Shown piece by piece: positions 1,987 through 32,277 of a stretch of DNA of 64,000 nt. This DNA is from Bdellovibrionota bacterium. GTDB lineage: Bacteria > Bdellovibrionota > Bdellovibrionia > Bdellovibrionales > JAMPXM01. A model generated the notes under the pieces. The model saw only the letters and a list, made by a program, of their open reading frames with translations. It was not told the DNA's origin and ran no database searches. The position numbers and the translations under genes were made by a program. Numbering within the stretch: the stretch's first letter is position 1; each line of letters begins with the position of its first letter. The stretch spans positions 1 to 64,000 of the forward strand of contig CAUJGS010000025.1 of assembly GCA_963170185.1 (NCBI GenBank), read 5' to 3'.

Positions 1987-2594
1987 TGCTTCGAATTGCG
2001 GCTCTCGAAAAACTGGTGCACCAGCTGAACCGGCTTCCCGGTATTGGACCGAAGACGGCTCAGCGTCTGGCGTATCAAATTCTTCGCGAGCCGGAACTCT
2101 CGACAGGCCTGCAAGAAGCCCTGGTCGCTGTCCGCGAGACCGTGCACCTCTGCGAGAGATGTTTTTCCTACACCGATGAACCGACCGCCTGTCGGTACTG
2201 CGCCGACACGTCTCGCAAAGATGACGTGATCTGTGTCGTCGAAGAGCCCAGTGACATTGTGCGAGTCGAAAGCTCCGGCGCGTTTCGCGGTCGCTACCAT
2301 GTGCTTCATGGCGCAATTTCACCGCTAGATGGTGTCGGGCCAGATGATCTCAAAATTCGTGAGCTCTTAAGCCGTATCGAAGAATCGCAAGGCTCAGCTC
2401 CTATCACAGAGGTGATCTTGGCGTTGGACCCAGACTTAGAGGGCGACACGACGGTGCTTTATCTGGCAAAGATATTAACTGAGCGCGGGCTGAAGGCGAC
2501 TCGAATCGCCAGCGGTGTTCCGCTTGGCAGTGATATTGACTACGTAGACGACCGTACGCTTGGTCGTGCTTTGGAAAACCGGGTTGAACTGTAA
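1986..2594 (+). CDS. recR: recombination mediator protein RecR
   Basis: RecR works with RecF and RecO to load RecA on gapped single-stranded DNA. The 202-residue product has the usual length and order: N-terminal helix-hairpin-helix (KLVHQLNRLPGIGPKTAQRLAYQIL), a four-cysteine zinc finger (CERCFSYTDEPTACRYC) at about residues 56-72, a Toprim domain beginning ICVVEEPSDIVRVE and containing LALDPDLEGDTT, and the C-terminal ASGVPLGSDIDYVDDRTLGRAL. It overlaps ybaB by one base, and its TAA stop overlaps the mglA ATG by one base, so mglA is expressed from the same transcript. Confidence 0.98.
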   Translation: MLRIAALEKLVHQLNRLPGIGPKTAQRLAYQILREPELSTGLQEALVAVRETVHLCERCFSYTDEPTACRYCADTSRKDDVICVVEEPSDIVRVESSGAFRGRYHVLHGAISPLDGVGPDDLKIRELLSRIEESQGSAPITEVILALDPDLEGDTTVLYLAKILTERGLKATRIASGVPLGSDIDYVDDRTLGRALENRVEL

Positions 2595-3184
2595 TGGCAT
2601 TTATCAATAAAGAAGCCGGCGAAATTCACTGCAAACTTGTCTATTACGGACCATCGCTTGGGGGCAAAACCACCAACGTACAGTGGGTTTACAACCGTAC
2701 TACCGGACAAGACCAAACTCAGATGCAGGCGTTTAACGCCAATCCCGAGCGCACGCTCTTCTTCGACTTTCTTCCAATGGATGTCGGACAAATTCGTGGA
2801 CTCAAAACGCGCTTTCACCTGTACACGGTTCCTGGACAGGTCGTTTACGACTCGTCTCGCAAACTCATCATGAAAGGTCTCGACGGAGTCGTCTTCGTCG
2901 CTGATTCGCAGATCGAGCGCATGGAAGAAAACCTCAAAGCCATGCAGAACCTCGAAAAGAATCTCGAGCAACAGGGCTACGACATCCGTCGCATCCCTCT
3001 CGTGATTCAGTACAACAAGCGGGATCTTCCGAACGTCACACCAATCGCCGAAATGCGAGCAGCTTTGAACCGCTACAACGCTCCGGATTTCGAAGCCGTT
3101 GCCAGCAGCGGCAAGGGTGTGATGGACACTCTAAAGACTATTTCGAAAACCATTGTTACGACTTTAAAAGGTGGCGAGATTTGA
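2594..3184 (+). CDS. mglA: MglA-type small Ras-like GTPase
   Basis: MglA is a cytoplasmic GTPase that marks the leading pole and activates motility machinery in Myxococcus; in Bdellovibrio an MglA homologue takes part in pole-associated functions. This 196-residue protein has the P-loop GPSLGGKTTN at residues 19-28, the altered switch region TVPGQ at 78-82 where Ras proteins have DxxG, and NKRD at 141-144 for guanine recognition. All three fit the MglA/Arf-like branch, not Era or Ras. Its start overlaps the recR stop and its stop overlaps the next TTG start, so it lies inside the dnaX operon. No mglB (Roadblock GAP) is in the window. The GYF and coiled-coil genes 1.1 kb downstream are plausible partners. 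Confidence 0.95.
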   Translation: MAFINKEAGEIHCKLVYYGPSLGGKTTNVQWVYNRTTGQDQTQMQAFNANPERTLFFDFLPMDVGQIRGLKTRFHLYTVPGQVVYDSSRKLIMKGLDGVVFVADSQIERMEENLKAMQNLEKNLEQQGYDIRRIPLVIQYNKRDLPNVTPIAEMRAALNRYNAPDFEAVASSGKGVMDTLKTISKTIVTTLKGGEI

Positions 3185-4325: not shown

Positions 4326-5681
4326 ATGGAGCCTCGCTTTCCCGTCGGTGAAGACACCCTTTGGTTTGTATTCCAAGAAGACAACCAGTCGGGTCCCTTC
4401 GTCACATCTGAACTCGCAAGCCGCATGAACGCCGGAGAAATCTCCGAGGAATCCTTCGTATGGGCACAAGGGTTTTCGGACTGGACACCGGCAAGCGAGA
4501 TCCCGGGTCTTGCCGCCTATCGATTGGACCTAAAGTCTTTTGAGCAAGCGGAGGCCATGGACAAGGTTCATGATTCACTCGCACTTCGTCATACGGAGTT
4601 CGTTGGAACACAGTCCGACGAAAAGGCCAGCGTCGAAGACTGGGTCGCAAGGCAAGCCGTCGTAAACGAAAAGCTTGCGAAGGTTGAATCCATCCTCGAT
4701 CGGGCAGCTTCGCACGAAGCCAAGCAGGCCGAAGAAAAGGCGTCGCCCTTCGTGCGACACAAGTACAAGATCGCAGTTGGACTAAGTGCCTTCATCTTTG
4801 CTGCGGGCTCCTTTGCCATGCAAAGCCACAAGCAAGACCCCATCGGCACGCTCAGCCTTTCGGCTTCCGACCGAAGCGCGCTTCGCAATGCGATCTCTCA
4901 AAGTCATCTTTTTTCCGGACCAAGCGCCGATGTCGTGGTCGCATCGGCAAACGGCGAAAACCCTCGATTCGCAATCGGCACAAATCTCGCCGATGGCTCG
5001 AAGCTTGAGATTCGTATCGATGGCGTTCCGGGCAAGATGCTCGATCGCAGTCGCTATGCAATGAAAGCCGTCCTTCTGCCGAAAAACGGGTTTCTTCTCA
5101 CCGATCGTCTCGCGGAGGTGGATGGAAAACCGTTTCGCGCAGGCCTGTATCGTGTGACCGTAAAAGACAGCCAACGCGACTCGATTCTTTCGACCAAGAC
5201 ATTCTTCCTTGGCGCAGTCCCCGGTGGCGATTTCGAGGCGGCACTCGCTTTGTATCAGGCCGATCTTAAAGAACAGGCCCAAATGGAAACGATGGAGCTT
5301 CGTCAGCTTCTAGAAACGACATCTAAGATTTTAAACGATAGCTCAAAGTGGTTCGCCAAATCGGAATCAAAAACCACCTTGGCGACCCAGTGGCGAGAGC
5401 GCTTTCAACAGTTTGGCGTCATCGACGCGCAGCTGAAGTCGTTGGAACAGCAGTGGTCGACCGAGCCGCTGGCCTCACAAATCGTGAACATCGAGGCCTA
5501 TCGCAAAATGGCAGAGATGATTCAACAGGTCCGCGCTGGACACACGGCCATAGAAAACTTCGTAAACACATCTGATCCCATGAGCCGCGCCGCAAACCGC
5601 GAGCTGATCGCTCAGTCCTGGCTCAAGGCCCAATCGGCCAGTGAAAATCTCACCAAGTTGCTCGAAGGCACCAACCAATAG
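4326..5681 (+). CDS. GYF-domain single-pass membrane protein
   Basis: A 451-residue inner-membrane protein. The N-terminal cytoplasmic part carries a GYF_2-type domain at about residues 12-62, with the family marks WFVF, SGPFVTSEL, WAQGFSDWTPASEIPGL. One transmembrane segment follows at about 148-165 (IAVGLSAFIFAAGSFAM), preceded by positive residues, which puts the C-terminal 280 residues in the periplasm. There a small beta domain (about 200-300, ending KTFFLGAVPGG) is followed by a helical region. GYF domains generally bind proline-rich peptides. The next gene encodes a coiled-coil protein with a PPPPP tail, and mglA is 1.1 kb upstream. In Myxococcus the gliding protein GltJ also has a cytoplasmic GYF domain; orthology is not claimed. 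GGAAG precedes the ATG. Confidence 0.8.
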   Translation: MEPRFPVGEDTLWFVFQEDNQSGPFVTSELASRMNAGEISEESFVWAQGFSDWTPASEIPGLAAYRLDLKSFEQAEAMDKVHDSLALRHTEFVGTQSDEKASVEDWVARQAVVNEKLAKVESILDRAASHEAKQAEEKASPFVRHKYKIAVGLSAFIFAAGSFAMQSHKQDPIGTLSLSASDRSALRNAISQSHLFSGPSADVVVASANGENPRFAIGTNLADGSKLEIRIDGVPGKMLDRSRYAMKAVLLPKNGFLLTDRLAEVDGKPFRAGLYRVTVKDSQRDSILSTKTFFLGAVPGGDFEAALALYQADLKEQAQMETMELRQLLETTSKILNDSSKWFAKSESKTTLATQWRERFQQFGVIDAQLKSLEQQWSTEPLASQIVNIEAYRKMAEMIQQVRAGHTAIENFVNTSDPMSRAANRELIAQSWLKAQSASENLTKLLEGTNQ

Positions 5682-26741: not shown

Positions 26742-27401
26742 CTAGAGAAGAATGAAGAGACCGCAGCCGAGCGAGTATTCCGACAAACTCGAAGACAGCG
26801 TCGGCGATTGGAAAATCGTCGTGGAATAAAGAAACTCAGGCCGAATGCCAATCCCAGGGGCCAAGGGATAGTCAGCACCCAAACGAATTCCGAAATACAC
26901 GCCACTGCCTTCGATCGAAGGCACTAAGTCGTTGTCGCGCTTGATGGTCGCCATGGCCGCACCCACTGCTCCACCAACGTAGGGAGTAAAACGGCGGATT
27001 AGCAGAAGAGGTTTTTCGCCTTCGGTATCGCCCACAGAAGCGGCCGGCCCCCAGAAGTACCACCTTGCAGATACACCGGTAAAAGAAGAACCCATCGAAA
27101 AGGGAGCGAAATTCACCCCGCGCGTGTGTTCGATACCAAGAGAAAAGAAATCCGAAAGAAGACGATCCGCGAAGATCGAGATCACTGCGGGGCCTTCGCT
27201 TCGCTCGACAATCGTTAACTGATCTTGGACCGTCGCGACTTGCGTGACGCCGGATCCTCCAAAACCCAAAGAGCCCCCAAGACGATAGCGAGACGACTTC
27301 GCGATCGCGGGAGTCGCGGCCGCCATGATAGCCATCGACATCAAAACCGATATCGTGATCGCTTGGATCAACGCTATGTTACGCCGCACGATTTCGCTCA
27401 T
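26742..27401 (-). CDS. outer-membrane beta-barrel protein
   Basis: A 219-residue protein with a signal peptide (IQAITISVLMSMAIMAAATPAIAKS). The mature part alternates hydrophobic and polar residues in strands with Gly and aromatics (YRLGGSLGFGG, VSARWYFWGPA, RFTPYVGGAVGAAMATI, GVYFGIRLGADYPL, YSLGCGLFILL), as in small OmpA/OmpW-like barrels. ATG 27401 is chosen because AGGGG is four bases upstream; a GTG at 27422 is also in frame. It overlaps the 3' end of the FliF/FliG-like gene by 23 bases, so both are translated from one message. It ends 19 bases from the convergent giant lipoprotein gene, with no evident terminator between. Confidence 0.75.
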   Translation of the reverse strand: MSEIVRRNIALIQAITISVLMSMAIMAAATPAIAKSSRYRLGGSLGFGGSGVTQVATVQDQLTIVERSEGPAVISIFADRLLSDFFSLGIEHTRGVNFAPFSMGSSFTGVSARWYFWGPAASVGDTEGEKPLLLIRRFTPYVGGAVGAAMATIKRDNDLVPSIEGSGVYFGIRLGADYPLAPGIGIRPEFLYSTTIFQSPTLSSSLSEYSLGCGLFILL

Positions 27402-29253
27402 CTTGCCCCTCGACGTTTCCACCCTCGGTCACGCTAGCACCGTTCTCTTTGAAGGGGAAGATTTCATCTAGCACCAGCGTCTTGGTCATCACCAACGTCC
27501 TTAAGCGCTTCGCAAGAGACTCGATCCATACACCTTTGTCCTTTGCCGACAGTTTGTCGGGCTTCGACAATTCATCGGTGACCATCGCAACCGTCAACTG
27601 AGGTGCAACCTTCAACAGACGTTCTTGCAAATCGGGTCGAACACGGCAAAGTGCGACAACCTCATCCGTCGAGGCTTGTGCCAGAAGAGTCCCAACTGCA
27701 TCATCCGGCCACTCGGCAAGGAACGCCAATGTCGGCGTCGTACGACGGAACTCCTCCGCGGCAGGCCCCTGCATCCCAGCAAGAAGCACAACCTCTTCCA
27801 CCGGCTCCAAGGCCTCGACGAGTTTGTTCAGTGTCATCTCAAGAGGCACGATCTCCGCTTTTTCGTCGGACTTGAACTTTGACATCAAGCCGCGATCAAA
27901 ATCCCGGAGCTCAGCCGAAGGAATTTCGCTCATGCCAGCTGCCGCCACCAAGAGCTCACGCTTGGCATCGAGACTCATCGTCTTCATAAATTTCGAACGA
28001 AGTTCAGTCGGCATAAAGAGCGAGACCACTGTGCGCATCTTCGGATTTTGCTCCATCAGCACTTGGCTCACCATTCCGATATTGAGGCCACCAAGGTACC
28101 CAAATGGCTGTTCCAGGGCTGACGGACCGACGTTCAAAACTGTCAGAAGATCCCAATAAGATTTCTGTAAAATTTCATGTTTCTCGCGTACCTGCACTTC
28201 CGACATGCGCGCAAAGATACGAGTGATATCGGAAACCGCATCCACCGGGATCGGCAACTTTCCAACCTCTTTGCCAACGACTTCCGAGAAAATCGCCACT
28301 TTCTTCCAACCCGTTTCTCCGCTCTGACTCCAAGAACGCATAATCGCTTCGAGATGCAGGTTGATCTTCGGCAAAACTTCGAGGATTTTTTCTTTCAAAG
28401 AGTCCACACCAAGCCGCGCGATTTCCTCTTCGCGGGCCTGCTTTTCGTCTGCCAAACGCTGCTTTTCTTCTTCGCTCATGCCAACGGCCGCGGCCGTGGT
28501 ACCAGAAGACACGTTGGTATTGCTGGTCGTCGAGGAGGATTCAACAGGTGCAGCACCTTGTGTCGCGGCCTTCCGAGGAGTCAAAATCCCCCACAGCAGA
28601 ACACCCAAGACGATCGCCGCAGCCAAAGCCAACTGGCCCGCGAGGCTTTGAAACTGGTTCAGCATGTCCCACGTGGTTTTAGGAGCCGCCATCTCGGGAG
28701 CTTTTTGTGGAGCTACACGAATCGTCGTTACCGTGCCCTTGCCGACTTTGCCAAACTCGGAGTTCACGCGCTCGGTGACCCACTTCTCGATCTCCGTGCG
28801 AGCTTCCGCGGGAACTGTTTCGCTGAGCCCGACATTTACCGCAACGGTGCGAATCTTAAAGCCTTCCAAAAACTGCTTCGCCACTTCGTGCTGTTGACCC
28901 GGCGGAGAATAGTTTTTCAGCAACGCCTCCGGATCTAGCATTCCCAATGTCAAATCGGAGATCGGCTCCATTTCACCAGATACTGCAACCGTCGGCGGTT
29001 GCTCGATCTTCCTAGGAACCGCTTGTAAATCGAGCTCCGCGCTGATCGAAAACATCGAGCGGTCCAAGCGAGTCGCCAAATTCTGTGTAAAACGTCTTGC
29101 CAGAAGATCTTCAAGCAAAGCCTTGGCGCTTAATGCATCCGGCGCGAGCGCCGTAGGTGACGCCGCATAGCTCGCCGGGAAAACAAATTGAACCGCGATG
29201 AAAATCGCAGTCGCCAATCGAACAAATCTATTTTTCCGTTTCGGGTGACTCAT
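27379..29253 (-). CDS. FliF-FliG-like single-chain rotor protein
   Basis: 624 residues. A signal peptide (about 1-31) is followed by a periplasmic domain that matches the last ring-building part of FliF: SISAELDLQAV at 69-79, and KIRTVAVNVGL followed by EKWVTERVNSEFGKVGKGTVTTIRV at 133-180, like FliF 'rlsvavvvd...' and its closing strand. One membrane helix lies at about 206-224 (LALAAAIVLGVLLWGIL). After a Ser/Thr linker and a charged helix come three segments in FliG order: N-like GWKKVAIFSEVVGKEV at 315-330 with MSEVQVREKHEIL; M-like VLMEQNPKMRTVVSLFMP at 398-415 (FliG has EHPQ here); and a C-like helical part at about 470-590. In flagella FliF and FliG are separate proteins. The family call is by eye. 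Confidence 0.7.
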   Translation of the reverse strand: MSHPKRKNRFVRLATAIFIAVQFVFPASYAASPTALAPDALSAKALLEDLLARRFTQNLATRLDRSMFSISAELDLQAVPRKIEQPPTVAVSGEMEPISDLTLGMLDPEALLKNYSPPGQQHEVAKQFLEGFKIRTVAVNVGLSETVPAEARTEIEKWVTERVNSEFGKVGKGTVTTIRVAPQKAPEMAAPKTTWDMLNQFQSLAGQLALAAAIVLGVLLWGILTPRKAATQGAAPVESSSTTSNTNVSSGTTAAAVGMSEEEKQRLADEKQAREEEIARLGVDSLKEKILEVLPKINLHLEAIMRSWSQSGETGWKKVAIFSEVVGKEVGKLPIPVDAVSDITRIFARMSEVQVREKHEILQKSYWDLLTVLNVGPSALEQPFGYLGGLNIGMVSQVLMEQNPKMRTVVSLFMPTELRSKFMKTMSLDAKRELLVAAAGMSEIPSAELRDFDRGLMSKFKSDEKAEIVPLEMTLNKLVEALEPVEEVVLLAGMQGPAAEEFRRTTPTLAFLAEWPDDAVGTLLAQASTDEVVALCRVRPDLQERLLKVAPQLTVAMVTDELSKPDKLSAKDKGVWIESLAKRLRTLVMTKTLVLDEIFPFKENGASVTEGGNVEGQDERNRAA

Positions 29254-29268
29254 CCGTGAACCCCCTCC

Positions 29269-29910
29269 TTATGGTCCGCGCGGTCTGGTGGCCGCCGGAT
29301 CCCTTCCACTTTGAATAGCCTTGACCTTCGCGACCATCTTGACCGCATCCTCCATCTGAGGATCTGAGACCAACGCCTGTTCGTAGAACTTCAAACTTTC
29401 CGAATAATTTTTCTGCGCAAAGTAAATAGAAGCTTTCATGGAAAGTGCACGAGCGAAGCCCGGAAAGTCCGTGAGAATCTTATCGAGTTCGATCAAGGAA
29501 CGCTCGTACTGTTGGGAGAGCGCGAATTTCTGCGCCAAGAACAACCGATCCAACACGGACTTCGCAAAACGCTCTTCTTTCGGAGTCGTACCTTGCACCA
29601 ACGGAACATTTAGTTCCGTCACCAGAGTCCCAAACTGAGCGGCCGGCAGCAGAAAGGATTGAGTGACATGCCCGGCCTTCTCAACCGAGACCGTAAAAAA
29701 CTCCCCGGAAACCATTTCGTCGCCGACCTTTTCGCGAATCTCCGACATCGGCATCTCGAGTGGGGTTTTTCCCACGAGTTTCTTCTCCGAAGACTTCGGA
29801 TTCACAAAGTAAACATCCGCTTCAATCGGCTCGCTCTGCACTTTGAACTTGTGCGCGCAACCAACCAGAAGACCACAAACAACAATAAGAAGAGCAATTG
29901 GTGTTTTCAT
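29269..29910 (-). CDS. TPR lipoprotein with PEGA-like N-terminal domain
   Basis: 213 residues from ATG 29910. The signal peptide MKTPIALLIVVCGLLVGC ends in a lipobox. Residues about 20-105 form a PEGA-like beta domain (SEPIEADVYFVN, GKTPLEMPMSEI, FTVSVEKAGHVTQSF). The C-terminal part has at least two TPR motifs (ALSQQYERSLIELDKILTDFP, IYFAQKNYSESLKFYEQAL, with SDPQMEDA next). ATG 29919 and a GTG at 29952 are also in frame; none has a clear ribosome binding site, and 29910 gives the cleanest signal peptide. It precedes the FliF/FliG-like gene by 15 bases in one operon, so it is a likely outer-membrane or periplasmic partner of that rotor-like protein. Confidence 0.8.
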   Translation of the reverse strand: MKTPIALLIVVCGLLVGCAHKFKVQSEPIEADVYFVNPKSSEKKLVGKTPLEMPMSEIREKVGDEMVSGEFFTVSVEKAGHVTQSFLLPAAQFGTLVTELNVPLVQGTTPKEERFAKSVLDRLFLAQKFALSQQYERSLIELDKILTDFPGFARALSMKASIYFAQKNYSESLKFYEQALVSDPQMEDAVKMVAKVKAIQSGRDPAATRPRGP

Positions 29911-30059
29911 CTGAATCATATATCGACTTAATTCGAGACGAACTTGAGACACCTGAGACAGTCACGCCTGGCTCCCGACCAAGGTCTATCGGACCCGACA
30001 CCACTACTCATCAACGCCTCGCTCGCGATATTCTCTTCTCCATGAAGGAAACCCACATC

Positions 30060-30767
30060 ATGCATCAGCCATTCTTTCTCTCGGCCGTTCTTCTAGCGAC
30101 CGCCTCCGTCACTTTATTGGGCTGCTCCAAGCCCGACCTGAAAGATCCGAACATTCAAGAGAGCTACGCCATCGGCAGAGAAGTCGGCGAGACCTTCGTC
30201 CGCCAAGAGATGAAGGTGAACGAAGACGCCTTTCTACTTGGTCTACGTGATGCCATGAAAAACGAACCTTCAAAGCTTGACTCGGCGACTTTGGCCGAGG
30301 CCTCACACCGAGCCCGTCAACAAGCGATGAAGAAGTTCCAGGACATGCAGGCGCAAGCCGCCGAGTTTTTGCGAGCTAGCGAGGCCTACTTGGCCGAGAA
30401 CAAAAAGAAGCCCGAGGTTAAAACGACTTCGTCTGGCTTACAGTACGAAGTTCTCACCCTGGGCAAGGGTCAAAAACCCAAAGACCAGCAGATGGTCGAA
30501 GTGCACTACGAGGGAAAACTCATCGATGGAACGATTTTCGATTCGTCGGTTCAACGAAAGAAAAGCGCCGAATTCAATTTGAACCAAGTGATTCCCGGGT
30601 GGATAGAAGTTCTTAAAATGATGCCCGTGGGATCAAAATGGAAAGTCACGATTCCGCCCGCGCTCGCTTACCGCGATGCAGGTATGCCGCCGAAAATTCC
30701 ACCAAACGCTGTTCTGATATTTGAAATTGAGCTTTTAAAAGCCTGGGATGCGCCCAAAGCTCCGTAG
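30060..30767 (+). CDS. FKBP-type peptidyl-prolyl isomerase lipoprotein
   Basis: Periplasmic folding helper of the FkpA/Mip type, 235 residues. Signal peptide FFLSAVLLATASVTLLGC with lipobox. An N-terminal helical dimerisation domain (about 25-115, YAIGREVGETFVRQEMKVNEDAFLLGLRD and onward) is followed by the FKBP domain at about 130-232 with VEVHYEGKLIDGTIFDSS, VIPGWIEVLKMMPVGSKW, IPPALAYRDAGMPPKIPPN and LIFEIELL, which hold most of the usual active-site positions. ATG 30060 is chosen over 30042 because AAGGA is ten bases upstream of it and the signal peptide begins there. It lies between the TPR lipoprotein (divergent) and motB (convergent, ten bases away). Confidence 0.92.
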   Translation: MHQPFFLSAVLLATASVTLLGCSKPDLKDPNIQESYAIGREVGETFVRQEMKVNEDAFLLGLRDAMKNEPSKLDSATLAEASHRARQQAMKKFQDMQAQAAEFLRASEAYLAENKKKPEVKTTSSGLQYEVLTLGKGQKPKDQQMVEVHYEGKLIDGTIFDSSVQRKKSAEFNLNQVIPGWIEVLKMMPVGSKWKVTIPPALAYRDAGMPPKIPPNAVLIFEIELLKAWDAPKAP

Positions 30768-30777
30768 GCTCGGAACT

Positions 30778-31488
30778 CTAATCCAAAGGTGCCGATTTCA
30801 GAATCTGGATAACAACACGACGATTAGCCGACTGGTTTTCCAAGTGTGGCACACCTTGATCGTCGCGGTTATTCACAGCCGGTTTCGTATCAGCCCAACC
30901 GACAGACATGAGATGAGTGCGATCGAAGTTTTCTCGTTCGAAAAACCGCACGATGCTGCTGGCACGCAACGCCGAGAGCTCCCAGTTGGATGCGATCACA
31001 CCTTGCGTGATCGGCGTGTCGTCGGTGTGACCTTCCACCAAAATATAGAAGCCCGGAGCTTCTGTCTTGATCACCGGTGTCAGCTCTCCGAGCAAGCTAA
31101 TCGCCTCCGAACGAGGATTCACCGAACCAATATCAAAAAACACCGTTCCGCGAAATGTGATCCCCACCCCGCGCGCGTTGGTCTCGACGGTGACCTGCTC
31201 GGAAAGCCCTTTTGCCTCGATCACAGCTTGAATTTGCTTCTGCAGCTCTTCGAACGGTTTTTTGTACTCGCCACCAAAGAGTTCCGCGGAATGCATACGC
31301 ATCTCTTCGGCCTTCTTGTCGTCGAACTTCGAGAAACTCAGCATCAACGCGAAAAAGCCCATCAGCAATGTCATCAAGTCCGCATACGAAACCAGCCAAG
31401 GGCCTTCGCCCTCTTCTGCCTTATGAGCCTTAGGTGGCCCTCCGGCAGGTAGCTCGTCTTCGTCGTGATGGTGCTGTTCGGCAGCCAT
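30778..31488 (-). CDS. motB: MotB-type stator protein
   Basis: Stator subunit that conducts ions and anchors to peptidoglycan. 236 residues, shorter than the roughly 300 of E. coli MotB. The His/Asp/Glu-rich N-terminus leads to one membrane helix with the ion-binding Asp at residue 37 in PWLVSYADLMTLLMGFF. After the helix come a plug-like amphipathic stretch (SKFDDKKAEEMRMHSAELF), a helical linker and an OmpA-like domain from about residue 110 (VFFDIGS, VEGHTDDTPI, NWELSALRASSIVRFF, NQSANRRVVI) which binds the cell wall. It starts three bases after motA. Together with the rotor-like gene on the same strand 1.5 kb further on, it could drive a motor other than the flagellum, although a flagellar stator is equally possible. 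Confidence 0.93.
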   Translation of the reverse strand: MAAEQHHHDEDELPAGGPPKAHKAEEGEGPWLVSYADLMTLLMGFFALMLSFSKFDDKKAEEMRMHSAELFGGEYKKPFEELQKQIQAVIEAKGLSEQVTVETNARGVGITFRGTVFFDIGSVNPRSEAISLLGELTPVIKTEAPGFYILVEGHTDDTPITQGVIASNWELSALRASSIVRFFERENFDRTHLMSVGWADTKPAVNNRDDQGVPHLENQSANRRVVIQILKSAPLD

Positions 31489-31491
31489 GTT

Positions 31492-32277
31492 CTATGCCGC
31501 CTTCTTCAGAGTCGCGCGCTCTTTAGGAAGCAAATACGACTTGAGAGATTCCTCGACGATCAAAGGGTGCTTCTTTAAGCGGATGAGCTTCACGCCTTCG
31601 ATCACCATCATGCGAATGTTGTAATCCATCTTCGTCAGCTTCGTGAGATACTCGCCAAGCGGTAGAAAAATGAAGTTCGCGACAGCGATACCGTAAAGTG
31701 TCGCGACGAGCGCGATCGCAAGCGACGGACCAACCGACTTGATCGCGTCCGACGACCCAAGACCTTGCATCATCGCCACAATCCCCATAACCGCGCCAAG
31801 AAGACCAAAAGCCGGCGGGAACTTGGACATCGTTTTGAAAATCTCCGCATCTTGCTCGTAACGATGAAAGTGCGTCATCGCACGCTTCATCAAGATCGTA
31901 TCAAGCTCTTTTGGCTCAATTCCCCCAGCCGCCATCAGCTCGAGAGCTTCTTTGAAGAACGGGTTCTTCACGGTTTTGGACTTTTCACCAATTGCCGCGG
32001 GATTGTCGCGATAGGCTTTCGCCACTTCGACAACCTCTTTGATAAGGATGTCGTAACGATCGACTTCGTTTTTCAGAACTCGAGTAAAGAACACCTTCGT
32101 CATGTTCAACATGCTGGCGCCACCAAACGAAACCAGCCAGGCGGCGAGTGTGCCACCGAGAACGATTAGCGCCGCGTGATAATCCAAAAAGACTTTGTAT
32201 TCCTTGGTCGACGTGAGCGCCGCACCAAGAAAGACAACAAGGGAAAGGACGAGACCGATTAACATCGAGATGTTCAT
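31492..32277 (-). CDS. motA: MotA-type stator protein
   Basis: Ion channel and torque subunit, 261 residues, close to the PomA/MotA length. Four membrane helices: about 3-20, 33-55, and a pair at about 150-175 (FPPAFGLLGAVMGIVAMMQGL) and 182-207 (VGPSLAIALVATLYGIAVANFIFLPL), which is the Pro-containing signature region. The cytoplasmic loop between helices 2 and 3 is charged (RYDILIKEVVEVAKAYRDN, HFHRYEQDAEIFKTMSKF) as expected for contact with FliG. It is the first gene of the motAB pair; upstream I find no clear ribosome binding site and no CCGATAG promoter. Confidence 0.95.
   Translation of the reverse strand: MNISMLIGLVLSLVVFLGAALTSTKEYKVFLDYHAALIVLGGTLAAWLVSFGGASMLNMTKVFFTRVLKNEVDRYDILIKEVVEVAKAYRDNPAAIGEKSKTVKNPFFKEALELMAAGGIEPKELDTILMKRAMTHFHRYEQDAEIFKTMSKFPPAFGLLGAVMGIVAMMQGLGSSDAIKSVGPSLAIALVATLYGIAVANFIFLPLGEYLTKLTKMDYNIRMMVIEGVKLIRLKKHPLIVEESLKSYLLPKERATLKKAA

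Follow-up and report, generated by a model that had tools for sequence, protein, structure and literature searches.

Gene content of the locus

The DNA analysed here, called the window, comprises positions 1 to 64,000 of contig CAUJGS010000025.1 (assembly GCA_963170185.1; contig C25 of the 3.54-Mb Bdellovibrionota genome G000) and carries a set of genes for motor-like parts of the cell envelope. Five minus-strand genes at 26742-32277 had been singled out in an earlier note, made from the sequence alone, as coding for an outer-membrane barrel, a tetratricopeptide repeat (TPR)/PEGA lipoprotein, a rotor-like inner-membrane fusion protein and a MotAB stator pair, interrupted by an FKBP gene on the other strand. 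All six open reading frames were located as claimed (Table 1), and the idea of a motor-like set with parts for every envelope layer is supported by the conserved locus and by domain homology. The proposed extent was too narrow, as the set reaches position 4326 and the conserved locus measures ~30-35 kb; the FliF RBM3 domain of the fusion protein had likewise been overlooked. In our reading, to which we assign a probability of roughly three in four, the set encodes a dedicated, non-flagellar, MotAB-driven rotary envelope motor with a one-piece rotor.

Table 1. Positions in the window of the motor-like gene set and of neighbouring genes.
Feature	Position	Strand	Characteristics
MotA-type stator subunit, 261 aa	31492..32277	-	Pfam MotA_ExbB 6e-24; R90 equivalent conserved
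MotB-type stator subunit, 236 aa	30778..31488	-	plug/transmembrane segment with channel aspartate (YADLMT), Pfam plug 3e-15; OmpA-type peptidoglycan-binding domain, Pfam OmpA 3e-11
TPR/PEGA lipoprotein	29269..29952	-	lipobox cysteine C32; clear Pfam TPR match
Rotor-like fusion, 624 aa	27379..29253	-	signal peptide, FliF RBM3-like domain, transmembrane helix, long helix, FliG-like domains
Outer-membrane beta-barrel, 226 aa	26742..27422	-	Pfam OMP_b-brl 3.6e-4 (weak); neighbour of fusion conserved
FKBP gene	29976..30767	+	between TPR lipoprotein gene and motB; clear Pfam FKBP match
Giant fn3-repeat lipoprotein, 2300 aa	19820..26722	+	adjoins TPR-fusion-barrel genes in most type I loci
FG-GAP repeat lipoprotein, 1100 aa	16533..19835	+	conserved neighbour of the 2300-aa gene
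Giant lipoprotein, 1924 aa	10721..16495	+	Big_1, fn3 and NHL matches
Secreted protein, 362 aa	9407..10495	+	signal peptide, probably beta-rich; position conserved
LysM lipoprotein (peptidoglycan-binding), 307 aa	8433..9356	+	
Cytoplasmic coiled-coil protein, 876 aa	5745..8375	+	proline-rich C-terminal tail (PPPPP)
GYF-domain protein, 451 aa	4326..5681	+	weak transmembrane segment, helical C-terminal part

Domain structure of the rotor-like fusion protein

Pfam scores of the window fusion against FliG were weak (FliG_C 0.003, FliG_M 0.05), and the label 'rotor-like' therefore needed further proof. Individual relatives of the fusion matched both Pfam families well, and a hidden Markov model (HMM) built solely from fusion relatives recognised the flagellar FliG of the same genome at 7e-22. 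Profile-profile comparison of the fusion with FliG gave a probability of 97 and an E value of 1e-10, the match being collinear across the middle and C-terminal domains, and a PDB profile search with the fusion family retrieved FliG (1lkv) at E 2.2e-28. Single-protein scans of genome contigs and viral contigs with the window fusion yielded no match.

In the AlphaFold model of the fusion (33 sequences, pLDDT 75.7), a periplasmic alpha-beta domain is followed by a transmembrane helix, a long helix and an array of helices, with the RBM3-like domain at residues ~37-180, the transmembrane segment at ~194-224, the long helix at 261-310 and the FliG-like domains at ~314-598. Comparison of the modelled residues 37-180 with FliF RBM3 by VIA-align gave Z scores of 11.4-11.7 (11.4-11.6 for 7d84/6sd1/7cg7), with 90-96 residues superposed at root mean square deviations (rmsd) of 2.0-2.4 Å. 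Among unrelated folds the nearest, from the OsmC family, reached Z 8.7; the type III secretion system (T3SS) ring protein 8axn reached Z 7.7. Further along the model, residues 381-598 matched the FliG middle and C-terminal domains (3ajc, Z 11.8), and residues 508-595 superposed on MotAB-bound FliG_C (8ucs) with an rmsd of 2.0 Å over 87 residues (Z 10.9). The sequence-level match to FliF was weak but in order along RBM3 and the second transmembrane segment (hhalign P 0.003), and RBM3 was assigned because the structure comparison settled the question.

The residues of the FliG ridge carry torque. In the fusion family, the positions of D288 and D289 are acidic in 24/33 and 31/33 sequences, and those of K264 and R281 are basic in 19/33 each, the background being 15% and 13%. 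The EHPQ motif, by which FliG binds FliM, is invariant in 30/30 flagellar FliG proteins from the same genomes and lost from the fusion family. Based on the fold matches, the FliG profile matches and the retained ridge charges, we conclude that the protein is a fusion of FliF RBM3, one transmembrane helix and FliG, which bears out its designation as a rotor-like inner-membrane protein in the earlier note.

Linkage of MotAB to the fusion gene

Next to the fusion gene, whose 3' end and the barrel gene overlap by 44 bp, the immediate upstream gene in most relatives is that of the TPR/PEGA lipoprotein, with C32 invariant in 23 relatives. In many relatives the genes for TPR, fusion, barrel, MotA and MotB follow one another in the same direction (G058, G105, G075, G072, G106, G064, G066, G068, G067, G107 and others). 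A second arrangement, with MotAB at the far end of the conserved locus, occurs in G018, G130, G115, G035, G139 and G113; the order there is MotB-MotA (divergent), GYF, coiled-coil, LysM lipoprotein, secreted protein, 1.9-kaa lipoprotein, FG-GAP lipoprotein, 2.3-kaa fn3 lipoprotein, TPR, fusion and barrel, and MotA lies ~24-26 kb from the fusion where the whole locus sits on one contig. The window has the same genes at 4326-29952, with its MotAB placed between the genes for FKBP and NadA. These two genes adjoin each other directly in the sister genome G011, where MotAB (82% identity) is on another contig; motAB was relocated in one of the two lineages, that of the window genome or that of G011.

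Among 44 fusion loci, each with at least 5 kb on both sides, TPR was present in 40, MotA in 34 and MotB in 35. Six of these loci had been fetched through MotA, and after their removal MotA was within the fetched neighbourhood of 28/38. The genomes contain ~10 genes of the MotA/ExbB family each, and we estimate that a MotAB pair would fall within 10 kb by chance in a few percent of cases. The grouping of TPR, fusion, barrel and MotAB is not due to chance and recurs in dozens of Bdellovibrionota genomes. G073 has an orphan fusion gene (L091, contig C4): its surroundings hold no TPR, barrel or MotAB gene, and the genome lacks a close MotA.

The earlier note had proposed conservation of the order motAB-FKBP-TPR-fusion-barrel as a check, and had named a fusion cluster that never lies near motAB as evidence to the contrary. 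Such a consistent separation was not found, as the two are co-directional in many genomes and in others lie at opposite ends of the same locus. FKBP, a local neighbour, was rejected as a member of the set, to which it is adjacent in no genome but those of the window and G011.

Phylogeny and covariation of MotA

Membership of MotAB, previously inferred from position only, is further supported by the MotA tree and by co-occurrence with the fusion. The window MotA falls into a clade of 37 (96/99) made up entirely of MotA sequences from such sets, and a second all-system clade of 12, of type II, includes the presumed motA2 of Bdellovibrio bacteriovorus HD100 (97/100). A flagellar-type clade (100/96), separate from both, includes the two remaining HD100 MotA and a MotA encoded on contig C63 of the window genome (L035). 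The earlier note had also named a second motAB pair that is clearly the partner as evidence to the contrary; the genome has this flagellar-type pair, placed in another clade, and a pair on contig C44 (L034) that has its own set.

In the tree, the window MotA groups with MotA rows and not with ExbB/TolQ-like rows; in the PDB its best match is FliG-bound MotA (8ucs, 7e-29), with TolQ at a great distance (2e-4). The window stator consists of full-length MotA and of MotB with an OmpA domain, and the ExbBD/TolQR features looked for in it (short cytoplasmic loops, an ExbD/TolR partner) were absent. In 47/60 system MotA, the residue corresponding to R90 is R.

Across the class, a close MotA (E<=1e-38) was present in 41/43 genomes with the fusion versus 15/100 without (Fisher 9e-21, in a test that ignores shared ancestry), and two of these 15, G004 and G061, proved to carry divergent fusions beside MotAB. 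When the distance between flagellar FliF proteins is controlled for, fusion and MotA distances still covary (partial r 0.46, permutation p 1e-4).

Distribution and paralogous sets

Fusion matches at E<=1e-60 were obtained in 58/368 Bdellovibrionota genomes, among them members of three families that do not belong to the class of the window (f22, f24, f26); in f22 and f26, relatives of 710-800 aa lie between TPR and MotAB genes (L307-L311). Among 38 genomes from other lineages, which had been chosen via MglA, the matches were all FliG-sized or short and partial. A search of 195 genomes of the Myxococcus phylum at E 1e-25 did not find the fusion either. Both absences are provisional, the latter because the search had no positive control.

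A second, more divergent set is encoded in the window genome on contig C44 (8195-15907). It comprises a PEGA/TPR lipoprotein, MotA, MotB, a 577-aa protein, an outer-membrane barrel and a 1036-aa NHL protein, the 577-aa protein having a signal peptide, an RBM3-like stretch and a transmembrane segment, with no FliG recognisable by Pfam. Genome G061 has three copies (L305, L313, L314) of TPR-fusion-(barrel)-MotB-MotA, their fusions being strongly diverged. A type II set, with MotAB, TPR and fusion genes, is present in G031 (L089, contig C1, ~2,913,421-2,920,191), which we take to be B. bacteriovorus HD100; the locus falls where the motAB2 tags would lie. In all likelihood, the motAB2 pair of HD100 (Bd3021/Bd3020) represents this type II version. 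No paper on Bd3014-Bd3018 was found in the literature.

Relation to the flagellum

To our knowledge, torque generation by FliG and MotAB is known solely from flagella, and three motAB pairs reportedly contribute to the motility of one flagellum, going by the title of a 2011 paper by Morehouse. The set might be a flagellar accessory, with MotAB as a spare stator of the ordinary flagellum and with fusion, TPR protein and barrel as an additional ring by which it is scaffolded or tuned. Carriers of the set are mostly flagellated: FliF_C is present in 35/38, and most carriers other than G035 and G130 have separate flagellar FliF and FliG, those of the window genome being on contig C62. In HD100, motAB2 has been treated as flagellar stator genes that are up-regulated in fliL mutants, and it has been described so far solely as one of three flagellar stator pairs; the same study found, however, that FliL Bd1076 binds MotB3 and not MotA2 or MotB2 (PMC11323537).

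Two genomes, G035 (97% complete) and G130 (99% complete), gave no match for FliF_C, FlhA or FliG, yet keep the fusion, TPR, barrel, MotAB and giant lipoproteins. Together with the separate clades of the system MotA, the FliG torque domain that the fusion has of its own and the giant lipoproteins linked to the set, this makes a flagellar accessory unlikely.

The proposed motor resembles the flagellar one in the types of MotA and MotB, in the FliF RBM3 and FliG middle and C-terminal folds and in the FliG_C ridge charges. It differs in having its FliF-like and FliG-like parts joined in a single protein, in which RBM1, RBM2 and the first transmembrane helix are absent, in the loss of EHPQ, and in that rod, hook, filament, export apparatus and FliM/FliN genes are not part of the set; no FliM/FliN was recognised among the window neighbour genes.

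Several observations weigh against a dedicated motor. At the sequence level the RBM3 homology is weak, and its assignment depends on the fold; the window fusion has L at the R281 position, and only 32/60 system MotA have an acidic residue at that of E98. The separate contig of motAB in G011 shows that its linkage near the window is not fixed, and Fisher's test of the co-occurrence of fusion and MotA takes no account of shared ancestry. The MotA of G035 and G130 are sister sequences (100/97), and the two genomes may reflect one flagellum loss. Finally, the literature cited above, with reference to the 2011 paper by Morehouse, places HD100 motAB2 among the flagellar stators.

Remaining genes of the locus and possible alternatives (secretion ring, Agl-Glt machine)

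Alternatively, the RBM3-FliG protein could form a static ring for export or for stabilising the envelope, as do SctJ or FliF, with MotAB acting on it as a Tol-like force generator or supplying ion-driven gating only. T3SS ring proteins such as 8axn have RBM folds too, and many large secreted lipoproteins are encoded beside the set. Yet FliG_C, known for its role in torque, has been retained together with its acidic ridge, the type of MotA is that which binds FliG and not that of TolQ, and none of the conserved neighbours was recognisable as an export gene, so that we hold a static ring to be very improbable.

The remaining genes of the locus (Table 1), namely three giant lipoproteins and the LysM lipoprotein, secreted, coiled-coil and GYF proteins, fill positions 4326-26722. 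The GYF domain has Myxococcus GltJ/AgmX (7z3c) as its nearest solved structure (profile E 2.1e-11), in agreement with Foldseek; outside this domain, the model of the protein gave mixed, unconvincing fold matches only. GYF domains bind proline-rich peptides, and the coiled-coil protein has a proline-rich tail (PPPPP, PLPPLPP and similar) in 10/10 orthologues with an intact C-terminus; for this reason the two proteins probably interact.

A comparison with the Agl-Glt gliding motor of Myxococcus had been drawn in the earlier note. It stands for the layout, since both combine an ion-driven stator with TPR, outer-membrane barrel, lipoprotein and GYF components across all envelope layers, and for the GltJ-like GYF protein, at domain level only; it does not extend to the stator, which is of MotA type. 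The comparison with Glt proteins covered the GYF domain; GYF_2 is widespread, and the barrel and TPR proteins here are of generic types. AglRQS, in contrast, is TolQR-like and has no FliG-type rotor; AglR was grouped with TolQ/ExbB-type transporters, and AglRS in a generic group (PMC12505986). That the set is a lineage-specific Agl-Glt machine, its AglRQS motor replaced by MotAB and a FliG rotor, is the least probable explanation of all, given also the provisional absence of the fusion from the Myxococcus phylum and an MglA that is unlinked to the set in relatives.

An MglA-type GTPase gene, followed by one for a class IV aminotransferase, lies at 2594-3184 of the window. Some relatives keep the pair irrespective of the motor set, and MglA, which occurred in none of the relatives' system loci examined, was rejected as a member.

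Proposed mechanism and significance

In the proposed rotary envelope motor, MotA5MotB2 would be the ion-driven stator. Many copies of the fusion protein would assemble into a membrane ring, with the RBM3 domains forming a periplasmic ring like the S ring of FliF, the single transmembrane helix crossing the inner membrane, and the FliG-type domains forming a cytoplasmic ring whose C-terminal ridge would be pushed by MotA. With FliF-like and FliG-like parts fused, a separate FliF-FliG joint would be unnecessary. Since EHPQ is lost and the set includes no gene for FliM/FliN, the rotor is predicted to have no switch under the control of CheY. Rotation may pass via the RBM3 ring across the periplasm to the TPR/PEGA lipoprotein and the outer-membrane barrel, while the LysM lipoprotein and MotB would grip the peptidoglycan. 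The force could then reach the giant surface lipoproteins (fn3, FG-GAP, Big/NHL), acting as adhesins or cargo, and the cytoplasmic GYF and coiled-coil proteins would probably place or switch on the machine.

An output of this kind recalls GldLM of type IX secretion and gliding in Bacteroidota, an ion-driven envelope motor that acts on outer-membrane parts and moves surface adhesins (PMC13104615). GldL and GldM are not MotA and MotB and have no FliF/FliG-like rotor, and the likeness in output is hypothetical.

More tentatively, and with doubt prevailing, we suggest that the set is the motor of a surface motility in Bdellovibrionota that depends on neither flagellum nor pilus: an RBM3-FliG ring, rotated by its own MotAB, would move the giant surface lipoproteins and give gliding and prey contact, and it would exist in several paralogous forms, as many as three in one genome, each specialised by its surface cargo. 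Gliding or adhesin movement is attractive as an output because the gliding machinery of Bdellovibrionota has been stated to be unidentified, the finding of its motor and adhesins being called a major challenge in a 2026 review (PMC13104615), and because HD100, a glider (PMC3169522), appears to have a type II set.

The set thereby offers a concrete candidate for this gliding motor, and for the driving of surface movement or adhesins in predatory bacteria. A version of it is apparently present in B. bacteriovorus HD100, so that existing genetics would allow the idea to be tested. A machine that relies on this rotor-stator pair, with a one-piece rotor devoid of the FliM contact motif, and that is retained where the flagellum is missing would mean that the core of the flagellar motor can work as a stand-alone envelope engine, which would bear on the evolution of the flagellar motor and provide a minimal rotor for structural work.

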